This document shows, piece after piece, positions 19,232-48,663 of a stretch of 64,000 nt of DNA. This DNA is from Acidimicrobiia bacterium (GTDB lineage Bacteria > Actinomycetota > Acidimicrobiia > Acidimicrobiales > MedAcidi-G1), in the NCBI GenBank assembly GCA_012961035.1, contig DUAC01000069.1, forward strand, positions 1 to 64,000, written 5' to 3'. A program made the position numbers and the translations under genes. Positions within the stretch are counted from its first letter, which is position 1. Every line of letters begins with the position of its first letter. The notes under the pieces were generated by a model that saw nothing but the letters and a program-made list of their open reading frames with translations, did no database searches and was not told the DNA's origin.

Positions 19232-19714
19232 GTGCTGGGCCAGTACCTCCCCATCGTCCTCCTGCTGTTCCTGACGGTCCTGTTCGCCGCCGTCAGCTTC
19301 GTGGCGTCGCGACTGCTGGCGCCACGCAGCCCCAACGACCGGAAGGCCGCCCCCTACGAGTGCGGCATCATCCCCGGCCGGGAGACGCCCGAACGCTTCC
19401 CCGTGCGCTTCTTCCTGGTGGCGATGATCTTCATCGTCTTCGACATCGAGATCATCTTCTTCTACCCGTGGGCCATTGCCCACCGGGGTCTCGGCCTCTC
19501 CGGGCTGGTGGCGGTGCTGCTCTTCTCCGCTGCGGTCTTCGAGTCGTTCGTGTACCTCATCGGCAACGGGGCCCTGGAGTGGGGGCCGGTGAAGCGTGTC
19601 AGGCACGATGCGGCCGTCTCCGCAACCCGTACGACCAGCAGCACGATCCGTCGGGTCGGCGTACGCGTGGTCGGCCTCGAGGGCCGGGACGACGGCAGGG
19701 GGTTCGCAGCCTGA
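19232..19714 (+). CDS. nuoA: NADH-quinone oxidoreductase subunit A (first complex I)
   Basis: Small membrane subunit lining the quinone channel of complex I. It shows [12 protein letters not shown] in the first loop and the conserved [13 protein letters not shown] helix. It has three helices and, at 160 residues, a C-terminal extension of about 40 residues beyond typical NuoA. It starts at GTG with GGAGGAG upstream and opens the 14-gene cluster. Its TGA overlaps the nuoB ATG. Confidence 0.96.
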
Positions 19715-20316
19715 TGGCACGCATTCCGCTGATCGGCGACGTCAGCCACGTCATGAGTGACGGCCTCGAGGGCCTTGAGCACAACTTCGTGACGTCCCGG
19801 ATCGAGGACCTGGTGAAGTGGTCGCGTGCCCGCAGCTGCTGGCCCGCCACCTTCGGCCTGGCCTGCTGCGCGCTCGAGATGATGGCCACCGGGGCAGCCC
19901 ACTACGACCTGGCCCGCTACGGCATGGAGGTGTTCCGTGCCTCGCCGCGCCAGGCCGACCTGATGATCGTGGCCGGCCGCGTCTCCCAGAAGATGGCACC
20001 GATCCTCCGGCAGATCTACGACCAGATGATGGAGCCCAAGTGGGTCATCTCGATGGGCGTATGCGCCTCCAGCGGAGGCATGTTCAACAACTACGCCATC
20101 GTCCAGGGCGTGGACCAGGTCGTGCCGGTCGACGTCTACGCACCCGGTTGTCCGCCCGGCCCGGAGACCCTCATGCACGCCATCCTGACGTTGCACGACA
20201 ACATCCAGAACGGCGAGCTGACCCGACGCCGTACGGAATCCAACGGCGGTGCCGGCATCCAGCTACAGGTACCCGACGTCCAGGGTGAACAGCCGGTGGA
20301 GCTGGGTTCCCGATGA
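19714..20316 (+). CDS. nuoB: NADH-quinone oxidoreductase subunit B (first complex I)
   Basis: Carries the terminal 4Fe-4S cluster N2 that reduces quinone. Ligand cysteines are in [11 protein letters not shown] (tandem Cys), GVCASSGG and [10 protein letters not shown]. The start ATG overlaps the nuoA stop and gives 200 residues; the longer frame upstream is a shadow of nuoA. The C-terminal tail is longer than in compact NuoB proteins. nuoC overlaps by 4 bp. Confidence 0.97.
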
Positions 20317-20864
20317 GCGATCCTGCGGCGGGTGGAGCAGACGTGGAGCCCTCCTCGCCGGATGACACCGCAGCGGAACCGGCTGGTCCGACCGCCTGGG
20401 GCGTCCCGGTGACCGAGTCCTTCGGCCAGATGGTCCTGCACCCACCAGTGGACCGCTGGTACGAGACGGTGTCCGCCTGTCGTGACGACGGCTATGTGAT
20501 GGCCATTGACCTGACGGTCGTGGACTACTCGGCCCACCCGGGCCGGACCGACCTGCCCGAGGGCATCCGACCGGAACGGTTCGAGGTCGTCGCCAGCCTG
20601 CTCTCCCATGCCACCGGTGGACGCGTCAGGCTCCGCACCCAGGTGCCGGAGTCCGATCCGGAGGTGGCGTCGCTCTTCGACCTGTACCCCGGGACGGAGG
20701 CCATGGAACGCGAGGCCTGGGACCTGTTGGGGGTGTCCTTCAGCGGCCATCCCGACCACACCCGGATCCTCATGCCGGAGGACTGGGAGGGCCATCCACT
20801 GCGACGTGACGTGTCCATGGGCCGGATCCCGGTCCAGTTCAGGGACGCGCCCTCAGCCCGATGA
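20313..20864 (+). CDS. nuoC: NADH-quinone oxidoreductase subunit C (first complex I)
   Basis: Peripheral-arm subunit of the 30-kDa family that packs against NuoD. The conserved region [19 protein letters not shown], followed by [20 protein letters not shown], is clear near the C-terminus. The N-terminal 30 residues are low-complexity and acidic. Length 183 residues. The ATG overlaps nuoB and the stop overlaps nuoD by 4 bp. Confidence 0.95.
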
Positions 20865-22198
20865 GCGACGTGGCAGAGCAGGCGACCAGCCCCATGGGCC
20901 CGGGCCGGACCGACCTGGGTCCCTCCGAGCGCGTGTACCGCCGTGACGAGACCAGCGCCGTGCTGCGCCTCAGCGAGGCCGAGGCAGCGGTGCTGGCCGG
21001 CAGTCCCGACGATCCACCGACCGGTGACATCGCCGACCAGCGGATGATCCTCAACATGGGGCCATCCCACCCGTCCACCCACGGGGTGCTCCGGCTCATG
21101 CTGGAGATGGAGGGCGAGGCGATCCTGAGGTGCAAGCCGGTCATCGGCTACCTGCACACCGGCATGGAGAAGACCGCCGAGGACCTCACCTACCTGCAGG
21201 GCCCCACCAACGTCACGCGCATGGACTATGCGGCGCCGCTCTTCTCGGAGCTGGCCTTCTCCATGGCCGTCGAGCAGCTCCTGGAGTTGGACGTACCGCC
21301 ACGCGCCACCTGGATCCGGATGCTCATGTGCGAGCTGAACCGGGTCTCGTCGCACCTGCTGTTCCAGGCCACCAACGGCATGGACCTGGGGGCCGTCTCC
21401 ATGATGATCTACGGCTGGCGGGAACGCGAGGAGGTACTGCGCTTCTTCGAGAAGGTGACCGGCCTTCGGATGAACCACAACTACATCCGGCCCGGTGGCG
21501 TGGCCGCCGACCTGCCCGATGGTTGGCAGGCCGACGTGCGGCGCCTCCTGGAGCTGATACCGCCCCGCCTGGACGAGTACGACAAGCTGTTGACCGGGCA
21601 GCCGATCTTCCGGGGTCGCCTACACGGCGTCGGCGTCATCACCCCGGCCGAGGCCCTCGCCCTGTCCGCCACAGGGCCCATCCTGCGATCCACCGGCTAC
21701 GCCTGGGACCTGCGTCGGGACCAGCCCTACCTGGCCTACGACGAGGTCGAGTTCGACGTCATCGTGGGAACCCACGGCGATTCGTTCGACCGTTACGCCA
21801 TCCGCCAGAACGAGATCAGGGAATCCCTGCGGATTGCCGAACAGATCCTGGACCTCATGCCCGCCGGGGACTACCGGGTGCAGGACAAGAAGGTCACGCC
21901 GCCGCCCAGGGCCCGCATCGACGAGTCGATGGAAGCCCTCATCCACCACTTCAAGATCTTCACCGAGGGCTTCCACGTGCCCCAGGGCGAGACCTATGCG
22001 GCTGTCGAGTCGCCACGTGGCGAGCTGGGCTGCTACCTGGTCTCGGATGGCGGCCCCAAGCCCTACCGAATGCACATTCGTGGCCCCAGCTTCGTGAACC
22101 TCCAGACCCTTCCCCACCTGATGGAGGGTGGCCTGATCGCCGACGGCGTGGCCGTCATCTCCTCGGTGGACCCGATCATGGGCGAGGTCGACCGGTGA
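20861..22198 (+). CDS. nuoD: NADH-quinone oxidoreductase subunit D (first complex I)
   Basis: The 49-kDa subunit, forming the quinone site with NuoB. Key residues are in MGPSHPSTHGVLRL (quinone-site His near 70-74) and IGYLHTGMEKT (Tyr98). The residue after His99 is Thr100; in mitochondrial NDUFS2 and in the second NuoD here this position is Arg. The protein is 445 residues, with a 60-residue N-terminal extension not seen in the second copy. The stop overlaps the nuoE GTG start. Confidence 0.96.
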   Translation: MSDVAEQATSPMGPGRTDLGPSERVYRRDETSAVLRLSEAEAAVLAGSPDDPPTGDIADQRMILNMGPSHPSTHGVLRLMLEMEGEAILRCKPVIGYLHTGMEKTAEDLTYLQGPTNVTRMDYAAPLFSELAFSMAVEQLLELDVPPRATWIRMLMCELNRVSSHLLFQATNGMDLGAVSMMIYGWREREEVLRFFEKVTGLRMNHNYIRPGGVAADLPDGWQADVRRLLELIPPRLDEYDKLLTGQPIFRGRLHGVGVITPAEALALSATGPILRSTGYAWDLRRDQPYLAYDEVEFDVIVGTHGDSFDRYAIRQNEIRESLRIAEQILDLMPAGDYRVQDKKVTPPPRARIDESMEALIHHFKIFTEGFHVPQGETYAAVESPRGELGCYLVSDGGPKPYRMHIRGPSFVNLQTLPHLMEGGLIADGVAVISSVDPIMGEVDR

Positions 22199-34969: not shown

Positions 34970-35335
34970 GTGTCCGACTTCCTTCGCAGCTGGTTGATGC
35001 TGGTGGTATTCGGCGGCCTCGCCGTGCTGCTGGTCTCGGCCTTCCTGGGCCTCGGCAGCCTGCTGCGGCCGTCTCATGACACCCCGCAGAAGCTGAAGAC
35101 GTACGAGTCCGGCGTGGATCCCTACGGCGACATGTGGAGCCAGTCCAACATCCGCTACTACGTGTTCGCCCTGATGTTCGTGCTGTTCGACGTGGAGGCC
35201 GTCTTCATCTTCCCCTGGGCCACCCGCCTCGAGGTATACGACGTGTTCGGCCTGGTCGAGATGGCCATCTTCATATTCATCCTGGCCCTCGGGCTGTTCT
35301 ACGCCTGGCGCAAGCGCCTGCTGCGGTGGATCTGA
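34970..35335 (+). CDS. nuoA: NADH-quinone oxidoreductase-like subunit A (second complex I)
   Basis: A 121-residue three-helix subunit with LKTYESGVDP in the first loop (Ser replaces the Cys found in the first NuoA) and the conserved LFDVEAVFIFPWA. It is compact, without the C-terminal tail of the first copy. The start is GTG. It opens an 11-gene cluster that lacks nuoEFG. Confidence 0.95.
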   Translation: MSDFLRSWLMLVVFGGLAVLLVSAFLGLGSLLRPSHDTPQKLKTYESGVDPYGDMWSQSNIRYYVFALMFVLFDVEAVFIFPWATRLEVYDVFGLVEMAIFIFILALGLFYAWRKRLLRWI

Positions 35336-35355
35336 GCGGGCAGGAGGCGTAGAAG

Positions 35356-35856
35356 ATGGGTCTGGTGGAGAACGGCAAGCTGCCGAAGCCGCTTACCAAA
35401 TTGCTCAACGTCAGCCGCAAGTACTCGCTCTGGGTATACCAGTGGGGCCTGGCGTGCTGTGCCATCGAGATGGGAGCGGCTTTCGCCTCGCCGCGCTACG
35501 ACGTCATGCGTCTCGGCGTGATCCCATTCCCGGCCAGCCCCCGTCAGGCCGACCTGGTGGTCGTCTCAGGCACGGTGACCGACAAGATGGCTCCCGCCGT
35601 GCGACGCCTCTACGAGCAGATGCCCGAGCCCAAGTACGTGATCTCCATGGGTTCATGTGCGAACTGCGGCGGCCCCTACTGGGACAGCTACTCGGTCACC
35701 AAAGGCGTCGACCAGATCATCCCGGTGGACGTCTACGTGCCCGGCTGCCCGCCACGCCCCGAGGCCCTCCTGGAGGGCATCGTGCTCCTCCAGGAGCGCA
35801 TCGCCACCGAGGACATGGCCGAACGCTGGACGGGTGACCCAATTGTCGTCACCTGA
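35356..35856 (+). CDS. nuoB: NADH-quinone oxidoreductase-like subunit B (second complex I)
   Basis: N2-cluster subunit, 166 residues, with [22 protein letters not shown] and [12 protein letters not shown]. It keeps all four N2 cysteines plus an extra one in SCANCGG. It is clearly divergent from the first NuoB, so this is an old paralogue, not a recent tandem copy. The next gene overlaps its end by 14-23 bp. Confidence 0.96.
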
Positions 35857-36535
35857 GGCAACCGAGGACGTGGACTCCGCTACGGAGGCACCGCCGGTTG
35901 ACGAACGTCGTGATGCGGTTGTCGCAGCCCTGGCCGAGGCGCTCGGCGACGGCCTCGTCGAATCTCATGTAGAGGCCGGCGTCGAGGTATGCGTGAGGGT
36001 CAGCGCCGATGCATGGGTGGATGCCGGCCGGGCGTTGCGGGACCGCTGCGCCATGTCGTACTTCGGCTTCCTCTCGGCCATCGACTGGATGCCGTCGCCC
36101 TACGGGCGTGACATGGATGCCCAGGTGGACCTGGAGCCGTCCGTGGATGCCGAGCCGGCCGCAATGGAGTGGGGCCTCGCCGGTGGTGCCACCCGGTTCC
36201 AGCTCCTGGCCCGGGTGCATGACCCGATCGGCCACCTGGGTGTGACCCTCAAGGCCGACCTGGTCGGGGAGAGGCCTGAGGTGGATTCCTGGATCGGCGT
36301 GTACCCGGGCGCCAACTGGCACGAGCGGGAGGCCTGGGAGATGTTCGGCATCACGTTCCGGGGCCACCCCAACCAGGTGCACCTGTACCTGCCGTCGCAC
36401 TTCGAGGGGAACCCCCTCCGCAAGGACTACCCGCTCCTGGCCCGACGGGTGAAGCCGTGGCCCGGCATCGTGGACGTGGAGCTGATGCCCGGCGGAGACG
36501 GGGACGACGGCGGCGACGAGGGGGAGGGCCCATGA
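35834..36535 (+). CDS. nuoC: NADH-quinone oxidoreductase-like subunit C (second complex I)
   Basis: 30-kDa-type subunit with [19 protein letters not shown] and [17 protein letters not shown], the family signature. The N-terminus (about 30 residues) and the C-terminus ([11 protein letters not shown]) are acidic. The start is uncertain: GTG at 35834 gives 233 residues and a 23-bp overlap with nuoB; TTG at 35843 is the alternative. Neither has a strong ribosome site. Confidence 0.93.
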
Positions 36536-37704
36536 CCGCCGTGGACGACCCCCGCCAGCTCGCCTACATCGCAGGCCAGGCCAGCGACGCCCGGGTGAAC
36601 CTGGAGATCGAGACCGAGGGCATGACCCTCAACATCGGACCTCAGCACCCGGCCACGCACGGCACGCTGCGCATCGTCGTGAAGCTGGACGGCGAGCGGG
36701 TGATGCGCGCCGAGCCGATCATGGGCTACATGCACCGCGGCTACGAGAAGCTGGTCGAGGTCCGCACCTACCCGCAGGTCACGTCGCTCATCAACCGCAT
36801 CGACTGGCTGGGCAGCTTCGCCAACGAGGTGCCGTTCATCCTGGCGGCCGAGCAGATCATGGGCGTGGAGGCACCGCCTCGTGCCCAGTGGATCCGCACC
36901 CTCCTCTTCGAGCTCTCCCGGATCGCCAACGTCGTCCTGTTCCTCGGCGACATGGGAGTCCAGCTGGGCGCCGTAACCCCGGTGTTCTTCGCCTTCCGCG
37001 ACCGCGAGTTCGTGCTGAACCAGATCGAGGCGGTGACCGGCGGTCGGTTCCACCCCAACTTCGACCGCATCGGCGGCCTCAAGGACGACATCCCCAAGGG
37101 ATGGACCGAAGAGACGAAGGGTGTCCTGGGGCGGATCCGGAAGTTCTGCGACGAGATGGAGGACCTCGTCACCGGCAACGAGATCTTCCAGGCCCGGACC
37201 CGTGGGATCGGTGTCATCCCGGCGGACGTGGGCCTCTCCTACGGCCTCTCCGGCGCCAACATCCGCGCCAGCGGCGTCGACTGGGACCTGCGTCGTGACG
37301 GTGGCATCGGCCTCGTCCACGACCAGCTGGACTGGAAGGTCTGGACGCATCCGGACGGCGATTCGTTCGCCCGCTACTGGGTGCGCCTCCAGGAGGTCCG
37401 CGAGGCCTGCAACATGGTCGAGCAGCTGCTGGACGGGATCCCGCCCGGCCCGGTAATGGCCAAGGTGCCACGCATCATCAAGGTCCCGCCGGGTGAGGCC
37501 TACGTGGAGACCGAGAACCCGCTGGGCGTGATGGGCTACTACGTGGTCTCCAAGGGTGACCTGGTCCCCTATCGGGTGAAGATCCGCTCGGCATCGTTCA
37601 ACAACATCTCGATCACGCCCTGGCTGCTCGAGGGCACGTACGTGCCGGATGTCGTCTCGATCCTGGCCAGCCTCTACTTCATCCTCGGGGACATAGACCG
37701 GTGA
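36532..37704 (+). CDS. nuoD: NADH-quinone oxidoreductase-like subunit D (second complex I)
   Basis: Quinone-site subunit, 390 residues, without the N-terminal extension of the first copy. GPQHPATHGTLRI keeps the quinone-site histidines, so the enzyme should reduce quinone and is not a hydrogenase: the NiFe cysteines are absent. IGYMHRG-type motif: GYMHRGYEKL carries Arg69, at the position of the arginine that is dimethylated in bovine NDUFS2; the first NuoD has Thr there. The ATG overlaps the nuoC stop. Confidence 0.96.
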   Translation: MTAVDDPRQLAYIAGQASDARVNLEIETEGMTLNIGPQHPATHGTLRIVVKLDGERVMRAEPIMGYMHRGYEKLVEVRTYPQVTSLINRIDWLGSFANEVPFILAAEQIMGVEAPPRAQWIRTLLFELSRIANVVLFLGDMGVQLGAVTPVFFAFRDREFVLNQIEAVTGGRFHPNFDRIGGLKDDIPKGWTEETKGVLGRIRKFCDEMEDLVTGNEIFQARTRGIGVIPADVGLSYGLSGANIRASGVDWDLRRDGGIGLVHDQLDWKVWTHPDGDSFARYWVRLQEVREACNMVEQLLDGIPPGPVMAKVPRIIKVPPGEAYVETENPLGVMGYYVVSKGDLVPYRVKIRSASFNNISITPWLLEGTYVPDVVSILASLYFILGDIDR

Positions 37705-38741
37705 GCGACCTACTCACGCTCGCCGTCGAGCTGGCCTGGTGGCAACAGACCGGCATCCGCGCGGTGCTGGGGCTGGTGGCCGTGCTGCTCCCCGCCGGGA
37801 CGCTCGTCTACCTCTTCCTGTTCAAGATGATGAGCTTCATGCAGAGCCGCCTGGGCCCCATGGAGGCGGGACCGCACGGATCCCTGCAACTGCTGGCCGA
37901 GGTCGGGAAGTTCCTCCAGAAGGAGGACATCATCCCCGAGAAGGCCGACCGCATCGTCTTCAAGGCCGCGCCGTTCGTGGTGCTCATCTCCACCTTCCTC
38001 CTGGTGCTCGTCATCCCGGCCGGGCCGGACGCCTGGTTCATCGACGTGGACACGGGGATCTTCCTGGCGCTGGCCGTCTCCTCCATCTCGGTGATCGGGA
38101 TCCTGATGGCGGGCTGGGCGTCGTCATCCAAGTACTCGCTGCTGGGTGCCCTGAGGGCGGCCGGCCAGCTGGTGGCCTACGAGCTGCCGCTGCTCCTGGC
38201 GGTGGTCGGCGTGGTCATCCAGGCCGGCACGCTGAACGTCCAGGGCATCGTCATGGCCCAGGCCACCGGTGAGATCTTCGGCTGGGGAGGCATCGGCAAC
38301 CCCTTCATACTCACCCAGTTCCTGGGCTTCGCCATCTTCCTCATCGCCGTCCAGGCCGAGCTCACGCAGCCGCCCTTCGACATGCCGGTGGCCGAGTCGG
38401 AGCTCGTCACCGGGTACCTGACCGAGTACTCGGGCCTGCGCTTCCTGCTCTTCTTCATCGGCGAGTTCGCCACCGCCGGCATCTTCGCCGCCCTGGCAGC
38501 CACCCTGTTCCTGGGCGGCTGGTACGTACCGGGCATCGATCCGACCAGCGACCTGTTCAACGTCATCGGCCCGGCTGTCCTGCTGGGCAAGGTGATCCTG
38601 GTGTCCTTCCTGATCTTCTGGTTCCGGTTCACCTACCCCCGGTTCCGCGAGGACCAGCTGCAACAGCTGGCCTGGAAGGTCCTGATCCCGCTGTCCCTTG
38701 CCAACATCGTCGTCACCGGCGTGCTGAAGGTGGTCTTCTAA
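37701..38741 (+). CDS. nuoH: NADH-quinone oxidoreductase-like subunit H (second complex I)
   Basis: 346-residue eight-helix subunit with [38 protein letters not shown] and [18 protein letters not shown]. It is directly downstream of nuoD: nuoE, nuoF and nuoG, which sit here in the first cluster, are absent. It starts at the GTG overlapping the nuoD stop, and the stop overlaps nuoI. Confidence 0.96.
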
Positions 38742-39250
38742 TGCCAGGAACCCTGAAGATCCCAGGACTGCTGAAGGGCCTCGGGGTGACCTTCTCGACG
38801 ATGGTGCGAACCCTCACGAAGGGGTCCCACACCGTCCAGTACCCGAGGGTCAAGGAAGCTCCCACTCCCCGTGCCCGTGGCGTGATCACGCTCCACGAGG
38901 AGAACTGCACGTCCTGCATGCTCTGCGCCCGCGAGTGCCCGGACTGGTGCATCTACATCGAGGGTCACAAGTACAAGGCACCGCCCCGCCGCCCCGGTGG
39001 CAAGCCGCGCCTGAAGAATGCCCTGGACCGTTTCGACATCGACTTCGCGCTCTGCATGTACTGCGGCATCTGCGTCGACGTCTGCCCGTTCGAGGCACTC
39101 TTCTGGTCGCCCGAGTACGAATACTCGGAGCCGAAGATCGCCGACCTGCTCCACGACAAGACGAAGCTCAGCCAGTGGATGGAGACCGTCCCGGACTTCC
39201 AGGACTACGAGTCGGGCAGCGAAGCCAAGAAGCCGACGGTGCCGCAGTGA
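38741..39250 (+). CDS. nuoI: NADH-quinone oxidoreductase-like subunit I (second complex I)
   Basis: 169-residue dicluster subunit with [15 protein letters not shown] and [15 protein letters not shown] (N6a and N6b). In 11-subunit complexes lacking NuoEFG, electrons are thought to enter at this subunit from ferredoxin or another donor. The segment between the clusters is Lys/Arg-rich ([17 protein letters not shown]), which would suit docking of an acidic ferredoxin; that is inference. Confidence 0.95.
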
Positions 39251-39792
39251 CCGTCCTGGCTGCCCTGGAGGGCATGGATCGCCTATCCAGCGGCGACGTC
39301 CTCGTGGCGCAGAACGTGGCCTTCGCCATCATGGCGATCACGATGGTCGCCAGCGCACTGCGCATGGTGACCACGCGCAACGTGGTCCACGCCGCCCTCT
39401 ATCTCGTGATCGTGCTGGCCGGGGTGGCTGGCATCTTCATCCTGCTTGGCGCCGAGTTCCTGGGCGTGACCCAGATAATGGTCTACATCGGCGCCATCGT
39501 CGTCCTCTTCCTGTTCGGCATCATGCTCACGAAGGGCTCCTTTGGCGACGACGACGGCGTCACCGGCGAGAGGCGCCTGATGGCAGGCCTGGTCGGACTG
39601 CTGGTGTTCGGCGTGATGGCCGCCGCCCTGGTCGAGTCATTCGCCGATGCCGAGCTCTCCCGGTCGGGCCCGTCCACCACGGCCGACATCGCCGACAGCA
39701 TCTTCGGCTACTACATCGTTCCCTTCGAGGCCGTATCCGTCCTGCTGCTGGCTGCCCTGATCGGGGCCATCGTCGTGGCCAGGAAGGACTGA
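39247..39792 (+). CDS. nuoJ: NADH-quinone oxidoreductase-like subunit J (second complex I)
   Basis: Membrane subunit of about 181 residues with [20 protein letters not shown], the conserved third-helix region. The GTG that overlaps the nuoI stop is the preferred start because the rest of the cluster is coupled that way; an ATG at 39274 is possible and would remove nine residues. Confidence 0.93.
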
Positions 39793-39793
39793 C

Positions 39794-40093
39794 ATGCTGC
39801 TTAACCAGTTCCTGCTGCTGTCCGCCGTCCTCTTCTCGATCGGGGTCTACGGGGTCCTCGCACGTCGCAACGGCGTGCTGGTGCTCATGTCCATCGAGCT
39901 GATCCTGAACGCTGTCAACATCAACCTCGTGGCCTTCGCGGCATTCACCGGCACCATCGGCGGCGAGGTGTTCGCCCTCTTCGTCATCGCCGTGGCTGCC
40001 GCCGAGGTTGGTGTGGGGCTGGCCATGGTGCTGCTGCTCTACCGCAGCAGCCGGACCATTGATCTGACCACCGTCGACCGGTTGAGGGGCTGA
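39794..40093 (+). CDS. nuoK: NADH-quinone oxidoreductase-like subunit K (second complex I)
   Basis: 99-residue three-helix subunit with [14 protein letters not shown] (helix 2 Glu) and [12 protein letters not shown] (helix 3 Glu), both needed for proton transfer. It starts 1 bp after the nuoJ stop; nuoL follows 4 bp after its end. Confidence 0.95.
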
Positions 40094-40097
40094 GACG

Positions 40098-42362
40098 ATG
40101 AGCAACCTCCTCATTGCAGCCCTCTCCGCGGATGCCGGCCTCCCCCTGGGGATCACCGAAGGCGGCAGCTGGCTGCTCCGCAACGTCTGGCTGATTCCCC
40201 TCCTGCCGGCGCTGTCGTTCGTCGGGATCCTCACGTTCGGGAAGCGCATGCCCCGTGGCGGCTCCGAGCTGGGCATCGCAGCTGTGGGCATCGCCTTCGT
40301 GCTGGCGCTGCTGACCGGCGTCGCCTGGATGGACCACCGCGACAACTCCCATGATCAGGAAGTCCATGTGGCGGTCGTCCAGTTCGACGACCACGGCGTC
40401 GGGCACGGCGACGGGTCCGAGGAAGGCCACGGTGGCGGTCATCCGTCCCTGGCAGTGCAGCGCACCGCCGTCTGGTTCCAGGCGGGCGGCATGGAGTTCA
40501 CGGTCGGAACCCTGGTCGACGGCCTGGCGGTGATGATGCTCGTCGTGGTGACCCTCGTGTCGTTGCTGGTGCACGTGTATTCCACCGAGTACGTACACGG
40601 CGACCGTCGCTACACCCACTACTTCGCATTCCTGTCGCTGTTCAGCGCCTCGATGCTGCTTCTGGTGGTCTCGGAGAACACCCTTCAGCTGCTCTGCGCC
40701 TGGGAGCTCGTGGGTGTCTGCTCCTTTGTCCTGATCGGACACTGGTGGGAGGAGAAGCCCAACAGCGATGCGGCGTTGAAGGCATTCCTCACCAACCGGG
40801 TGGGGGACATGGGCCTGCTGGTCGGGGTGACGGTGCTGTTCTTCGCAGCCGGCTCGACCCTGCCGGGCCGCTTCGGGTCGTTCTCCATTGCCGAGACGAA
40901 CGCCCTGGCGTCCAGCGGCATGCTGTCCCACACGGCGCTGGTGGTGGCCTCCTGCGGTCTCATGGCGGCCGTGATGTCCAAGTCAGGTCAGTTCTTCCTC
41001 CACACCTGGCTGCCTGACGCCATGGCCGGCCCGACGCCGGTTTCGGCGCTCATCCACGCAGCCACCATGGTCGTGGCCGGCGTCTTCATGATCGCCCGTA
41101 TGTACGGCGTCTTCTTCGAGGGCTTCCAGATCGGTGGCAGCTCGATCAACCTGATGGCCTTCATCGGCGGCCTCACCACCATCGTCGGAGCCTGCATGGC
41201 CTTCGTGCAGCGCGACATCAAGAAGGTGCTGGCCTACTCCACGATCTCGCAGCTGGGCTACATGGTCATGGCACTCGGGGTGGGTGCGTGGACGGCGGCC
41301 GTCTTCCACCTGTTCACCCACGCCTTCTTCAAGGCCTGCCTGTTCCTGGGCGCCGGCTCGGTCGCCCACGCGGTGCACAGCTTCGACATGAAGTCGGACA
41401 TGGGCGGGCTGCGAAAGCACATGCCGCACACCTACCGGACGTTCATGATCGGCACGGTCGCCCTCGCCGGCCTGCCGCCACTGGCGGGGTTCTGGTCCAA
41501 GGACGAGATCCTGGTCGGGACCGGCGGTTGGGGGTTGCTGGGCGGCACCGGCGGCAACGGTGCCTACACGCTGATGCTGGGCATGGGCATGTTGACGGCG
41601 GCGCTGACCGCCGCCTACATGACACGCTGCGTGTACCTGACGTTCTTCGGCGAGTTCCGGGGCCACGGTGAACCCCATGAGTCCGGTCCCCGCATCATCG
41701 TGCCGCTCTGGATCCTGGCGGGTCTGGCGATCGTCGTCGGCTTCCTGAACCTGCCCACCGGCTTCCAGCTGGCCCCCGGGTCGCTCCAGGAACGCTTCGG
41801 CCACTATGTGGAGCCCGTGGCCGGCTACTTCCCGGCCATCACGCATGCCACGCCCAGCTGGTCGTTGGCCATCGTCTCCACGCTGGTGGTCATCCTCGGC
41901 ATCGCAGCCTCCGGCTACTACTACTTCGTGAAGGTGGAGGCGGCCTCGAAGGCGGCCGGCACCAGCCTCACCGAACTTCCCGACGGCCCGACCAGCAGGT
42001 ATCCACTGGCTGCCATGGGCTACAAGCTGCTGGACAACAAGTACTACCTCGACCACCTCTACAGCGGGGTGATCGCCAACGGCACCAAGGGTCCGCTGGC
42101 CCGCCTGGCATACCGGATCAACCAGCAGGTGATCGACAGGACGGTCGACGTCGTGGGTGAGACCGCCGTGAAGGCGGGAACGGTCGTCTACGACAAGATC
42201 GACCAGTTGGTGGTCGACGGGGCGGTCAACGCCTCAGGCCGCGCATCCTCCGGGATGGGCGAGGAACTTCGAAGGGTCAACTCCGGCAAGGTCCAGAGCT
42301 ACGCGGCGATCCTGTTCGCGGCAGCAACGGTCCTGGCCGGACTGCTCATAGTCATCGTCTAG
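40098..42362 (+). CDS. nuoL: NADH-quinone oxidoreductase-like subunit L (second complex I), with His-rich loop
   Basis: 754-residue antiporter-like subunit with CAWELVGVCSFVLIGHWW, FFLHTWLPDAMAGPTPVSAL and LAGFWSKDEILVG. The C-terminus carries the lateral helix region and an extra helix. Odd feature: between the first helices lies an Asp/His/Gly-rich loop (about residues 75-115, including FDDHGVGHGDGSEEGHGGGH) with about ten histidines. It lacks the Ala-rich insertion of the first NuoL. Start ATG 4 bp after nuoK. Confidence 0.95.
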   Translation: MSNLLIAALSADAGLPLGITEGGSWLLRNVWLIPLLPALSFVGILTFGKRMPRGGSELGIAAVGIAFVLALLTGVAWMDHRDNSHDQEVHVAVVQFDDHGVGHGDGSEEGHGGGHPSLAVQRTAVWFQAGGMEFTVGTLVDGLAVMMLVVVTLVSLLVHVYSTEYVHGDRRYTHYFAFLSLFSASMLLLVVSENTLQLLCAWELVGVCSFVLIGHWWEEKPNSDAALKAFLTNRVGDMGLLVGVTVLFFAAGSTLPGRFGSFSIAETNALASSGMLSHTALVVASCGLMAAVMSKSGQFFLHTWLPDAMAGPTPVSALIHAATMVVAGVFMIARMYGVFFEGFQIGGSSINLMAFIGGLTTIVGACMAFVQRDIKKVLAYSTISQLGYMVMALGVGAWTAAVFHLFTHAFFKACLFLGAGSVAHAVHSFDMKSDMGGLRKHMPHTYRTFMIGTVALAGLPPLAGFWSKDEILVGTGGWGLLGGTGGNGAYTLMLGMGMLTAALTAAYMTRCVYLTFFGEFRGHGEPHESGPRIIVPLWILAGLAIVVGFLNLPTGFQLAPGSLQERFGHYVEPVAGYFPAITHATPSWSLAIVSTLVVILGIAASGYYYFVKVEAASKAAGTSLTELPDGPTSRYPLAAMGYKLLDNKYYLDHLYSGVIANGTKGPLARLAYRINQQVIDRTVDVVGETAVKAGTVVYDKIDQLVVDGAVNASGRASSGMGEELRRVNSGKVQSYAAILFAAATVLAGLLIVIV

Positions 42363-42373
42363 GAGACGCCGAC

Positions 42374-44014
42374 ATGGAAAATCTGCTCAACGGCTGGGGT
42401 ACCACCCTCGCCACCTTCTCACCGCTGGTCGGTGTGGCGATCATGATGCTCATCCCCGGGGAGCGTGAGCACCAGCACAAGATGGTCGCGCTCGTGACCT
42501 CCCTGTGGGTGGCGTTCCTGGGCGTGCTGCTCCTCATCTGGTTCGACATGGGCCAGACAGCCCAGTTGCAGTTCGTCGTCGACAAGCCCTGGATCGACGT
42601 CATCTCCAGCAGGTACCTGGTGGGCATCGACGGCATGTCCCTGCCGCTCATCCTGCTGACCATGCTGATCGTGCCGTTGTGCATCGTCTACAGCTGGGAC
42701 CACTTCCCGGATCCGGTCAACCCGAAGGCCTTCCTGATCCTGATCCTGATCCTCGAGACGGGGATGATCGGCACCTTCGTGGCCCAGGACCTGGTGCTCT
42801 TCTTCGTGTTCTTCGAGGTCGTGCTGCTCCCGATGTTCTTCATGATCGCCGTCTGGGGCGGCGAGGACCGGCGCTACGCATCCCTGAAGTTCTTCCTGTA
42901 CACCCTGTTCGGCTCGGCACTCATGCTGGTCAGCTTCCTGGCCCTGTTCTTCCTGACGGGCGCAGACACGTTCTCCTTCGCAGGCCTCTCCGACGCGGTG
43001 GCTGCCGGCGGGGTGTCGCACACCGCCCAACTCTGGATCTTCGGCGGCATGTTCCTGGGCTTCGCCATCAAGGTGCCGATGTTCCCGTTCCACACGTGGC
43101 TGCCCGATGCCCACACCCAGGCCCCCACGGTCGGGTCGGTCATCCTGGCTGCCGTGCTCCTGAAGTTGGGCACCTACGGCTTCGTGCGCATCGCAATCCC
43201 GATCCTGCCTGAGGCTGCGGTGGCATGGGCACCCTGGATCGGCCTCCTGGCGGTCATCGGCATCATCTACGGCGCCCTCGGGTGCCTCGCCCAGACCGAC
43301 ATGAAGCGCCTCATCGCCTTCTCGTCCGTTGCCCACATGGGCTTCGTGATGCTGGGAATCGCCACGCTCACGGACTTCGGAATCAACGCGGCGATCATGG
43401 GGATGGTCGCCCACGGCCTCATCACCGGGATGCTCTTCTTCGTCGCCGGTTCGGTGAAGGAGCGGTTCCACACGCTGGAGATCAACCGGCTCGGTGGCCT
43501 GCTCGTGCAGGCGCCCCGCATGGGCTGGATATTCGGCTTCTGCGTCATGGCCTCGCTGGGCCTTCCCGGCCTGGCCGGCTTCTGGGGCGAGTTCCCGGCG
43601 ATCCTGTCGGCCTACCAGCCGGCCAACGGCGTGCCGGTGGAGATATTCCGGGTCTACATGGTGGTCGCCGCCCTGGGCACGGTGCTGGCGGCCGGCTACC
43701 TGCTCTGGTTGCTGCAGCGTGTCGCCTTCGGCAACCCGACCGAGGAGTTCGCCGAGGCCCCGAACATCACCGACACCACCAAGCACGAGTGGATCGCATG
43801 GGCGCCGCTACTGGCCCTCATCGTGGCTATCGGCATCTACCCGAACCTGGTCTTCCGGGTAACCGACGGGGCGGTGGACGCATCCTTGAACGAGTGCCTG
43901 CGGGTGGACGTGCAGGTCCTGACGGCCGACGAGGTGGCGGCGCTGGGGTGCAGCGACGTCTATGGCCTGGGTGGTGGCTCCGACGCTCCCGTAGAGCACG
44001 CAGTCGGGAACTAG
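42374..44014 (+). CDS. nuoM: NADH-quinone oxidoreductase-like subunit M (second complex I)
   Basis: 546-residue proton-pumping subunit. FFVFFEVVLLPMFFMIAVWG has the essential helix 5 Glu; FPFHTWLPDAHTQAPTVGS and LIAFSSVAHMGFVMLG follow. LPGLAGFWGEFP matches NuoM rather than NuoL or NuoN. The C-terminal 40 residues are polar and include two cysteines of unknown meaning. ATG 11 bp after the nuoL stop. Confidence 0.95.
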   Translation: MENLLNGWGTTLATFSPLVGVAIMMLIPGEREHQHKMVALVTSLWVAFLGVLLLIWFDMGQTAQLQFVVDKPWIDVISSRYLVGIDGMSLPLILLTMLIVPLCIVYSWDHFPDPVNPKAFLILILILETGMIGTFVAQDLVLFFVFFEVVLLPMFFMIAVWGGEDRRYASLKFFLYTLFGSALMLVSFLALFFLTGADTFSFAGLSDAVAAGGVSHTAQLWIFGGMFLGFAIKVPMFPFHTWLPDAHTQAPTVGSVILAAVLLKLGTYGFVRIAIPILPEAAVAWAPWIGLLAVIGIIYGALGCLAQTDMKRLIAFSSVAHMGFVMLGIATLTDFGINAAIMGMVAHGLITGMLFFVAGSVKERFHTLEINRLGGLLVQAPRMGWIFGFCVMASLGLPGLAGFWGEFPAILSAYQPANGVPVEIFRVYMVVAALGTVLAAGYLLWLLQRVAFGNPTEEFAEAPNITDTTKHEWIAWAPLLALIVAIGIYPNLVFRVTDGAVDASLNECLRVDVQVLTADEVAALGCSDVYGLGGGSDAPVEHAVGN

Positions 44015-44017
44015 CCA

Positions 44018-45526
44018 GTGGGCCTCGACCTCCTCACCCTCGCCTTCGAGCGACCGGCAATCGACTGGCACGCCATCGCGCCCGAGCTTGTGCTGCTTAC
44101 GGCCGGGTGCCTGATCACGCTGGTCGACATCGTCTTCCTGGAGAAGGCCCGTCCGTACACCGCGGCGCTGGCCGGCATCGGCCTCCTGGCGACCGCAGTG
44201 CCGCTGCTCACGCTGGCGGTGGACGGCACGGACAGGGTCATGTTCGACGGCGCATACGTGGTCGACGAGTTCTCGCTGGTCATGAAGGCACTGTTCCTCC
44301 TGGCGGGCTACGTCGTAGTCCTGCTCTCGACCAACTACGTGGCCGAAGGCGACTACTGGGAGAACGAGTACTACGGCCTGCTGCTGGCATCGCTCATGGG
44401 CATGGTCATGATGGCCTCGGCGAGGGACCTGGTCTCCATCTTCGTGGCCCTCGAGCTGCTGTCCATCCCGGCGTACCTGCTGGTGGCATGGCGCAAGCGG
44501 GACCTGCATTCCACCGAGGCCGGCCTGAAGTACTACCTGATGGGCGTCTTCGCCTCGGCGGTGATGCTCTACGGGATGTCGCTGCTCTACGGCGTCGCCG
44601 GTTCGACCAGGCTGTCCGACATCGGCGACTCGCTGGCGGGGATGGGGACATCCCCGGCGGTGGTCACGATGGGCATCGTCTTCGTGGTGGCCGGCTTCGC
44701 CTTCAAGGTCTCGGCGGTGCCGTTCCACACCTGGGCTCCCGACGTGTACGAGGGCGCCCCCACCCCGGTGACCGCTTTCCTCTCCGTGGCCTCCAAGGCG
44801 GCGGGCTTCGTGGCCCTCCTGGCGTTCGTGTTCGTGGGCTTCTACGCCCGCAGCGAGGTCTGGGAGCCCCTGTTCTGGATCCTGGCCGCCCTCTCCATGA
44901 CCGTCGGCAACCTGGTGGCGCTGCGCCAGACCAACGTGGTGCGGCTCATGGCCTATTCGGGCATCGCCCAGACCGGCTTCATGATCGCCCCACTGGCCGT
45001 CGCCGGTCACGGTGTGGTCAACGGTGACCAGGCCCTTTCGGCGGTCGTCACCTACCTGGTGATCTACACGGCGATGAACCTGGGTGCCTTCACCGTGGTC
45101 ATTGCGCTGGCCCGGCGTTCCGGGTCGGCCGAGCTGACCTCGTTCAACGGAGCCTTCCAGTTCGCACCCGGCCTGACCGTGGCCATGTCCGTATTCCTGT
45201 TCTCCCTGGCCGGCATTCCGCCGCTGGGCGGATGGTTCGCCAAGTTCGAGGTGTTCCGCGTGCTGGCGACGGCCGGCGAGCCGTGGGGCTACGCACTGGC
45301 GATCGTCGGTGCCGTCAACTCGGTGGTGGCGCTCTACTACTACGCCTCCCTGGCCCGGCGCATGTGGGCCGACGACCCGGTGGACCGCGATCTGGGCCCG
45401 GTGCCGGTCACCCCGTCGCTCATGTCGGCGCTGACGCTGTGTGGCGTCGTCACGCTGGTGTTCGGCGTGGTGCCACAGGTGGTTGCACGTTTCACCGACG
45501 TCAGCCTGCTTGCCCTCGGGGGCTGA
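44018..45526 (+). CDS. nuoN: NADH-quinone oxidoreductase-like subunit N (second complex I)
   Basis: 502-residue antiporter-like subunit with FVALELLSIPAYLLVAW, AVPFHTWAPDVYEGAPTPV and LMAYSGIAQTGFMIAPL. GTG start 3 bp after the nuoM stop. Its end overlaps the likely start of the downstream methyltransferase gene, tying that gene to the complex I operon. Confidence 0.95.
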   Translation: MGLDLLTLAFERPAIDWHAIAPELVLLTAGCLITLVDIVFLEKARPYTAALAGIGLLATAVPLLTLAVDGTDRVMFDGAYVVDEFSLVMKALFLLAGYVVVLLSTNYVAEGDYWENEYYGLLLASLMGMVMMASARDLVSIFVALELLSIPAYLLVAWRKRDLHSTEAGLKYYLMGVFASAVMLYGMSLLYGVAGSTRLSDIGDSLAGMGTSPAVVTMGIVFVVAGFAFKVSAVPFHTWAPDVYEGAPTPVTAFLSVASKAAGFVALLAFVFVGFYARSEVWEPLFWILAALSMTVGNLVALRQTNVVRLMAYSGIAQTGFMIAPLAVAGHGVVNGDQALSAVVTYLVIYTAMNLGAFTVVIALARRSGSAELTSFNGAFQFAPGLTVAMSVFLFSLAGIPPLGGWFAKFEVFRVLATAGEPWGYALAIVGAVNSVVALYYYASLARRMWADDPVDRDLGPVPVTPSLMSALTLCGVVTLVFGVVPQVVARFTDVSLLALGG

Positions 45527-46607
45527 CGTAACGGCTACCCGGACGGTCGGACGCCCGCTGGCCGATCGTCTGGCGGAGCGGATCCGTGCCATGGGTCCGA
45601 TGGCGTTCGAGGCCTGGGTGGAGGCCTGCCTGTACGACCCCGACGGGGGCTTCTACGCCGCCGGTGGTGCAGCCGGCCGACGCGGCGACTTCATCACCTC
45701 ACCCGAGGTGGGCCCCCTGTTCGGAGCGGTCGTCGCCCGCTGGTTGGACGCTTCCTGGGAGGCCCTGGGTGGACCGTCCGGCTTCACGGTGGTCGAGGCG
45801 GCCGCCGGTGTGGGAACCCTGGCACGCAGCGTCCGTGCGGCCCGCCCCGCCTGCCTGGAGGCCGGCCGGTACGTGATGGTGGAACGGTGCGCCGTGTTGC
45901 GCGACGCACAACCGACCGGTGACGGGTTGTCGTCGCTGGCCGGTCTGGAGGACCTGCCGCCCCGGGGCGGCGACGGGCTTGTGGGCGTGGTGATGGCCAA
46001 CGAGCTGCTGGACAACCTGGCGTTCGGCCTGCTGGAGGCCGTGGACGGTGGCTGGTACGAGGTCCTCGTGGAGGTGGCATCCGAGGGCGCGGACCAGCCC
46101 ATGTTCCAGGAGGTGACCGGCGCCGCCGTCCACCCCCCGGTCGACGTGGCGCCACTGCAGGGCTCCCGGATGCCGGTCCAGGCCGGCGCCCGGCGCTGGG
46201 TGGACAGCGCCCTCGGCGTGCTCTCGGCGGGGTCCGTTCTGGTCATCGACTACGCATCCACCACGGCGGCCCTGGCGGCCCGCCCGCCCGGCGAATGGGT
46301 CCGTACGTACCGGGACCACCAGCGGGGGGGACCGGCGGTTTCGGCCCCCGGCGTCCAGGACGTGACCGTGGAGGTGGCGGTCGACCAGCTCCCACCGGGA
46401 GCCGACACCACCACCCAGGCCGCCTTCCTCCGTGCCAACGGCATCCAGGACCTGGTGGCGGAGGGCCGACGCCGCTGGGCCGAGCTGGCAGGGGTCGGCG
46501 ACCTGGAGGCCCTGCGGGCCCGGAGCCGGATAACCGAGGCCGAGGCGCTACTGGACCCTGATGGCCTGGGTGGCTTCACGGTCCTGGAGTGGCGTGTCGG
46601 CTCCTGA
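45510..46607 (+). CDS. MidA/NDUFAF7-family (DUF185) SAM-dependent methyltransferase
   Basis: 365-residue protein of the family whose mitochondrial member NDUFAF7 symmetrically dimethylates an arginine of the complex I subunit NDUFS2 and is needed for complex I assembly. Visible family features are GPMAFEAWVEACLYDPDGGF near the N-terminus, GRRGDFITSPEVGPLFG, the SAM-binding VVEAAAGVGTLARSV, ANELLDNLAFGLLE and LVIDYA. The start is uncertain: TTG at 45510 overlaps nuoN by 17 bp and gives the full family N-terminus; the ATG at 45591 would cut into it. Location right after nuoN strongly supports a complex I role; the target in bacteria is unproven. Confidence 0.87.
   Translation: MPSGADVTATRTVGRPLADRLAERIRAMGPMAFEAWVEACLYDPDGGFYAAGGAAGRRGDFITSPEVGPLFGAVVARWLDASWEALGGPSGFTVVEAAAGVGTLARSVRAARPACLEAGRYVMVERCAVLRDAQPTGDGLSSLAGLEDLPPRGGDGLVGVVMANELLDNLAFGLLEAVDGGWYEVLVEVASEGADQPMFQEVTGAAVHPPVDVAPLQGSRMPVQAGARRWVDSALGVLSAGSVLVIDYASTTAALAARPPGEWVRTYRDHQRGGPAVSAPGVQDVTVEVAVDQLPPGADTTTQAAFLRANGIQDLVAEGRRRWAELAGVGDLEALRARSRITEAEALLDPDGLGGFTVLEWRVGS

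Positions 46608-46668: not shown

Positions 46669-48663
<1,995 letters not shown>

Follow-up and report, generated by a model that had tools for sequence, protein, structure and literature searches.

A predicted MidA/NDUFAF7-type methyltransferase encoded beside arginine-type NuoD in bacterial complex I gene clusters

What question does the locus raise?

Why should the gene for a predicted protein methyltransferase sit at the very end of a complex I operon, in a bacterium that carries two such operons side by side? The window analysed here, a stretch of 64,000 nucleotides from an Acidimicrobiia bacterium (contig DUAC01000069.1 of assembly GCA_012961035.1), had been read as encoding an assembly methyltransferase dedicated to an 11-subunit complex I and co-encoded with its substrate, the NuoD subunit. 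That original prediction proves to be partly supported: bacterial methylation of this kind was already known, and an arginine in NuoD does not by itself predict MidA.

What does the window encode?

Two complex I clusters lie in tandem (Table 1), cluster 1 (about 19.4-34.8 kb) being upstream of cluster 2 (34970-45526). Cluster 1 has 14 genes, nuoEFG among them, and a Thr-type NuoD1; cluster 2 is nuoABCDHIJKLMN, with all 11 genes present and no nuoEFG, and so encodes an 11-subunit complex I without an NADH module. It is this second cluster that midA closes. The midA reading frame is open throughout (365 aa) and, as first proposed, directly follows the second nuoN and overlaps it, since nuoN2 ends inside the midA frame. 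A start at the TTG at 45510 would make the overlap 17 nt, and the following start codon in frame, ATG 45591, already lies within the conserved domain. Because the midA start is inside nuoN2, translation of the two genes may be coupled. A scan of their junction for a promoter and a terminator found neither, a result that carries no weight either way. Directly 3' of midA, on the same strand, is an AMP-binding gene of acetyl-CoA-synthetase-like type (46669-48663).

Table 1. Features of the two complex I clusters and of midA, in positions of the window
Feature	Position	Strand	Basis or remark
Open frame holding nuoB1, Arg (VAGRVSQK) at the switch position	19360..20316	+	true start further inside
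nuoD1, Thr-type (GYLHTGMEK, Thr100, codon 21158-21160)	20861..22198	+	
nuoA2	34970..35335	+	
nuoB2, N2-cluster subunit, Thr (VSGTVTDK) at the switch position, codon 35572-35574	35356..35856	+	
nuoC2	35843..36535	+	TTG start inferred
nuoD2, Arg-type 49-kDa subunit (GYMHRGYEK)	36532..37704	+	NCBIfam NuoD models; motif pattern match 36724-36750
Arg69 codon (CGC) of NuoD2, proposed methylation target	36736..36738	+	sequence read, position computed
nuoH2	37701..38741	+	
nuoI2	38741..39250	+	
nuoJ2	39253..39792	+	start approximate
nuoK2	39794..40093	+	
nuoL2	40098..42362	+	
nuoM2	42374..44014	+	
nuoN2	44018..45526	+	TIGR01770, 394.7 bits; end overlaps midA start
midA-like gene (PF02636), predicted NDUFAF7/MidA-family protein methyltransferase	45510..46607	+	Pfam, PDB sequence matches, AlphaFold model; TTG start inferred

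Is the product really a MidA-family protein?

The answer is yes. The gene is the one PF02636 match in the whole 2.37-Mb actinobacterial assembly, and its product scores 82.7 bits against that family, for which the Pfam cut-off is 23.3; an NCBIfam search with the same protein gave no match at the threshold used. Its sequence matches in the PDB are 1zkd (a Rhodopseudomonas DUF185 protein), 4f3n (Burkholderia) and 5ztz (Dictyostelium MidA). An AlphaFold model made from 20 sequences (mean pLDDT 87.8, pTM 0.87) finds good matches in MidA-family structures alone (1zkd, 5ztz, 5zu0, 4f3n and 4g67, with query-normalised TM of 0.72-0.77), while the other methyltransferases among the best 50 structure matches reach at most 0.38 on the same scale, as would be expected of a MidA-type fold. 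In a multi-phylum alignment of 20 sequences every fully invariant column is kept in the window protein, which has GD..T, E96 of motif I, G100, NE..D, DY and G..D.T; it differs at the nearly invariant G98 and P171. At SAM motif I it has AAAGVG where GPGRG or GAGxG is usual, and the longer stretch reads EAAAGVGTL against ExGxGxGxL in the family, a deviation common to its near relatives. Family score, PDB relatives and fold match all bear out the MidA/DUF185 assignment made at the outset, and on sequence and model together we place the gene product among the bacterial proteins of the MidA/NDUFAF7 family, as a predicted methyltransferase.

Where is the arginine, and what is known of it?

Near the iron-sulfur cluster N2, a second-sphere arginine is contributed by NDUFS2 in Yarrowia (NDUFS2-R121 with NDUFS7-T122) and by Nqo6 in Thermus (Nqo6-R83, with Thr at the NDUFS2-equivalent position), which amounts to an inter-subunit switch (PMC8042128). 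Our window holds both states of it: NuoD1/NuoB1 are Thr/Arg (HTG, VAGR) and NuoD2/NuoB2 are Arg/Thr (HRG, VSGT), with Arg69 in NuoD2 and Thr100 in NuoD1 exactly where they had been read. Arg69, in HRGYEK, fits the HR[G]xEK motif of an NDUFAF7-type target arginine in the partner 49-kDa subunit and, taken with VSGTVTDK of NuoB2, puts the second complex on the Arg-in-NuoD side of the switch (Arg in HRGxEK, Thr in [AS]GT of NuoB). Since NuoD1 has Thr, only the second complex would offer a substrate to a methyltransferase acting on an arginine of NuoD. The switch is strict beyond the window, too: across 72 loci with both genes, some of which overlap each other, the NuoD/NuoB residues are R/T in 43, T/R in 29 and nothing else.

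Bovine Arg85 is the arginine of HRGTEK (PMC3750175), just where the original prediction had counted it. Less fortunate was the statement that no bacterial case had been described, because the equivalent Arg65 of Paracoccus denitrificans Nqo4 is known to be symmetrically dimethylated (PMC3750175). The E. coli equivalent is unmodified (PMC3750175), so that an HRG motif alone is no mark of methylation. The biochemistry of MidA/NDUFAF7 homologues is treated in PMC3829151 and PMC3750175. In mitochondrial complex I the arginine next to the last iron-sulfur cluster is dimethylated. What this residue itself contributes has yet to be distinguished from the effect of modifying it (PMC8042128). A literature search that left most subscription journals uncovered found nothing on MidA in nuo operons or on lone NuoD in Streptomyces.

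Does MidA keep company with the arginine across genomes?

PF02636 is present in 68 of the 246 Actinomycetota genomes sampled. By DNA pattern alone, MidA occurs in 55/100 genomes with an HRG NuoD, 9/51 with Thr-type only and 4/95 with neither. A tblastn search of the 13 MidA genomes in which the HRG pattern had found nothing showed HRAAEK in six (family f20), HRSLEK in two (f38), HRSVEK in one (f56) and GFHHRGAEK in one; in the other three (G089, G196 and G244) Thr-type NuoD alone was seen. The apparent occurrence of MidA without Arg-type NuoD in f20, f38 and f56 was accordingly discarded, the DNA pattern having been at fault, and pattern and tblastn together place an Arg-type NuoD in 65 of the 68 MidA-positive genomes. 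After this correction MidA is present in 54/57 genomes with HRG[Y/A/H/M/V]EK versus 3/45 Thr-only genomes (Fisher p = 2e-21), a p value that, like others of its kind here, is a guide only and overstates independence, because the genomes are related, the HRG[Y/A/H/M/V] class was drawn up after the data had been seen and the tblastn check for HRA or HRS was made mainly in MidA-positive genomes. In the three core-HRG genomes without MidA (G139, G022 and G221) NuoD lies at a contig end, where the assembly could have dropped an adjacent midA. Counted by family, MidA is found in 25/26 core Arg-type families, and Thr-only genomes are without MidA in 16/18 families, f51 being counted as lacking it though one of its five genomes has it; of the families with both NuoD types, f43, f14 and f19 agree with the trend and f46 does not.

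The idea that HRG suffices to predict MidA had to be given up, since lineages with HRG[F/L/I]EK are mostly without it (MidA in 1/43 such Actinomycetota genomes). In Acidobacteriota, where several HRGFEK or HRGIEK genomes do have MidA, the contrast between Arg and Thr types is 46/47 versus 1/14. The trend is weaker in Chloroflexota, with MidA in 38/59 genomes of any Arg type (and hence missing from 21/59) versus 6/45 Thr-only genomes. Equal frequency of MidA with Thr-type NuoD had been named beforehand as the result that would tell against the original prediction, and the survey came out the other way in these three phyla.

Thr-only genomes with MidA do exist, namely G089, G196 and G244 in Actinomycetota, G293 in the Acidobacteriota survey and six in Chloroflexota. 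No nuo gene was detected near MidA in nine Thr-only genomes (G089, G196, G293, G430, G462, G467, G486, G502 and G510); either the searches overlooked an Arg-type NuoD in them or MidA does something else there. In G244, midA adjoins a lone Thr-type nuoB2 (locus L214, 10433-11818), and no Arg-type NuoD was found in the genome.

Are the two genes physically linked?

Wherever MidA and Arg-type NuoD share a contig in Actinomycetota they are close, all 38 of 38 pairs being 0.4-27 kb apart and 35 of them within 10 kb, for which chance would give about 0.2; the nearest Thr-type NuoD on a MidA contig is 24.5 kb away. This neighbourhood is not due to chance. Among 80 MidA loci from other phyla, MidA is immediately upstream of nuoA in Nitrospira, beside clusters that contain NuoEFG. 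Several cyanobacteria have it close to ndhH, Persephonella and one Chloroflexi genome have it close to nuoD, and in one Magnetococcales genome it follows nuoN. All NuoD motifs read in these loci are of HRG type, and genome-wide patterns agree. The co-encoding of MidA with Arg-type NuoD, originally claimed for the window operon, thus extends to the survey.

Particularly telling are eight genomes in which nuoD2 has moved out of its operon and is found in the neighbourhood of midA. Four come from actinomycete-like families (G023, G192, G082 and G060) and four from f20 (G007, G048, G092 and G037); in each, a lone Arg-type nuoD adjoins midA or lies no more than 8 kb from it (loci L202-L208 and L220), with no other nuo gene detected in the surrounding 12-20 kb. 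A second nuo cluster, located elsewhere in the genome in G023, G048, G059 and G007, has the A, B, C and H-N genes without nuoD (loci L241, L243, L244 and L246), although the G059 contig ends in nuoM. NuoB of the nuoD-less clusters has Thr and would therefore need an Arg-type partner NuoD. That midA occurs with the relocated nuoD is the strongest sign that its partner is NuoD and not complex I in general. In family f19, midA adjoins a nuoC-nuoD pair or nuoD; two short contigs of this family (L215 and L216) show such an arrangement, which is possibly an intermediate layout. One lone nuoD/midA neighbourhood in f20 (L206) also has the selenocysteine genes selA and selB.

What does MidA do here?

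By analogy with its homologues, we think it probable that this MidA/NDUFAF7-type enzyme acts on Arg69 of NuoD2 during assembly, and that the 14-subunit complex manages without it. The SAM chemistry, the choice of Arg69 and the assembly role would be those of the homologues, from which we also infer Arg69 methylation in the window organism. In the 14-subunit complex I of the same genome it is NuoB1 (VAGR) that supplies the N2-side arginine, and NuoD1 has Thr, so that complex would not need MidA.

A reader struck by the aberrant motif I (AAAGVG) of the window protein and its near relatives might prefer to see MidA chiefly as a NuoD2-binding assembly chaperone, with Arg69 methylation absent or incidental in this lineage, and a genetic link to nuoD itself would suit a chaperone well. 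We nevertheless regard this as unlikely, since E96, G100, NE..D, DY and G..D.T are retained here and invariant in 20 sequences from many phyla, and since MidA tracks the arginine and leaves Thr-type NuoD without a partner, a pattern not expected of a chaperone for NuoD in general. It is quite improbable, in our view, that MidA methylates some other target, DNA or another protein, and stands beside nuo genes through inherited history. When expressed in E. coli, Wolbachia MidA is reported to act on DNA, methylating both adenine and cytosine (PMC12455994), and some MidA-positive genomes show Thr-type NuoD alone; against this, adjacency to Arg-type NuoD recurs in differing layouts in at least five phyla and persists where nuoD has left its operon, and inheritance alone is insufficient to explain so repeated a linkage. 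A role for MidA in the 11-subunit complex at large, through another subunit, the quinone site or a lipid, and not in NuoD specifically, is suggested by the way midA closes the 11-gene cluster both in the window and elsewhere in its order, and by the lone nuoB2 next to midA in G244. It is nonetheless very improbable given HRGFEK 11-gene clusters without MidA, Nitrospira clusters that have both nuoEFG and MidA, and split genomes in which midA accompanies nuoD while the other ten genes lie apart from it.

The original prediction of an assembly methyltransferase for the 11-subunit complex I consequently survives in part: family membership and co-encoding with Arg-type NuoD favour it, while dedication to the 11-subunit complex is too narrow, given the Nitrospira loci and the lone nuoD of several Actinomycetota. 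The broader notion that MidA goes with 11-subunit complexes was rejected on the HRGFEK 11-gene clusters. All three such clusters examined in genomes without MidA (L182, L184 and L185) have an M48-family peptidase gene after nuoN.

Why does it matter?

We are evenly balanced on the wider view that MidA is, in bacteria, an ancient maturation factor of those complex I enzymes that carry the N2-side arginine on NuoD, and that nuoD and midA form a jointly selected pair which left the operon together in some Actinomycetota. If this is true, synthesis of methylated NuoD takes place apart from that of the remaining ten subunits, and the origin of the arginine modification is not specifically proteobacterial. 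An organism in which one complex would need the modification and the other takes its arginine from another subunit would provide its own internal control. In addition, the co-occurrence survey predicts from sequence which bacterial complexes I are likely to be methylated and which bear a bare arginine, and so unusually clean a genomic association opens a possible step of arginine methylation in bacterial complex I to direct testing.

How does it compare with known systems?

Human NDUFAF7 and Dictyostelium MidA, arginine methyltransferases of complex I assembly, belong to the same Pfam family as the window protein, share its fold (TM 0.73-0.75 to 5ztz and 5zu0) and have a target loop of the same kind, HRGxEK in the 49-kDa subunit; the window protein differs in being about 20% identical, bacterial and encoded in the operon of its presumed substrate, and its activity is a predicted one. 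In Paracoccus denitrificans the corresponding arginine of Nqo4 is modified, again in a bacterial complex I, although that is an alphaproteobacterial NADH-oxidising enzyme, whereas here we have an 11-subunit complex beside a second complex of Thr type. Finally, the inter-subunit switch defined by Yarrowia and Thermus is reproduced faithfully by NuoD2/NuoB2 (Arg/Thr) and NuoD1/NuoB1 (Thr/Arg), with the difference that a single genome here combines the two states and has MidA with one of them only.
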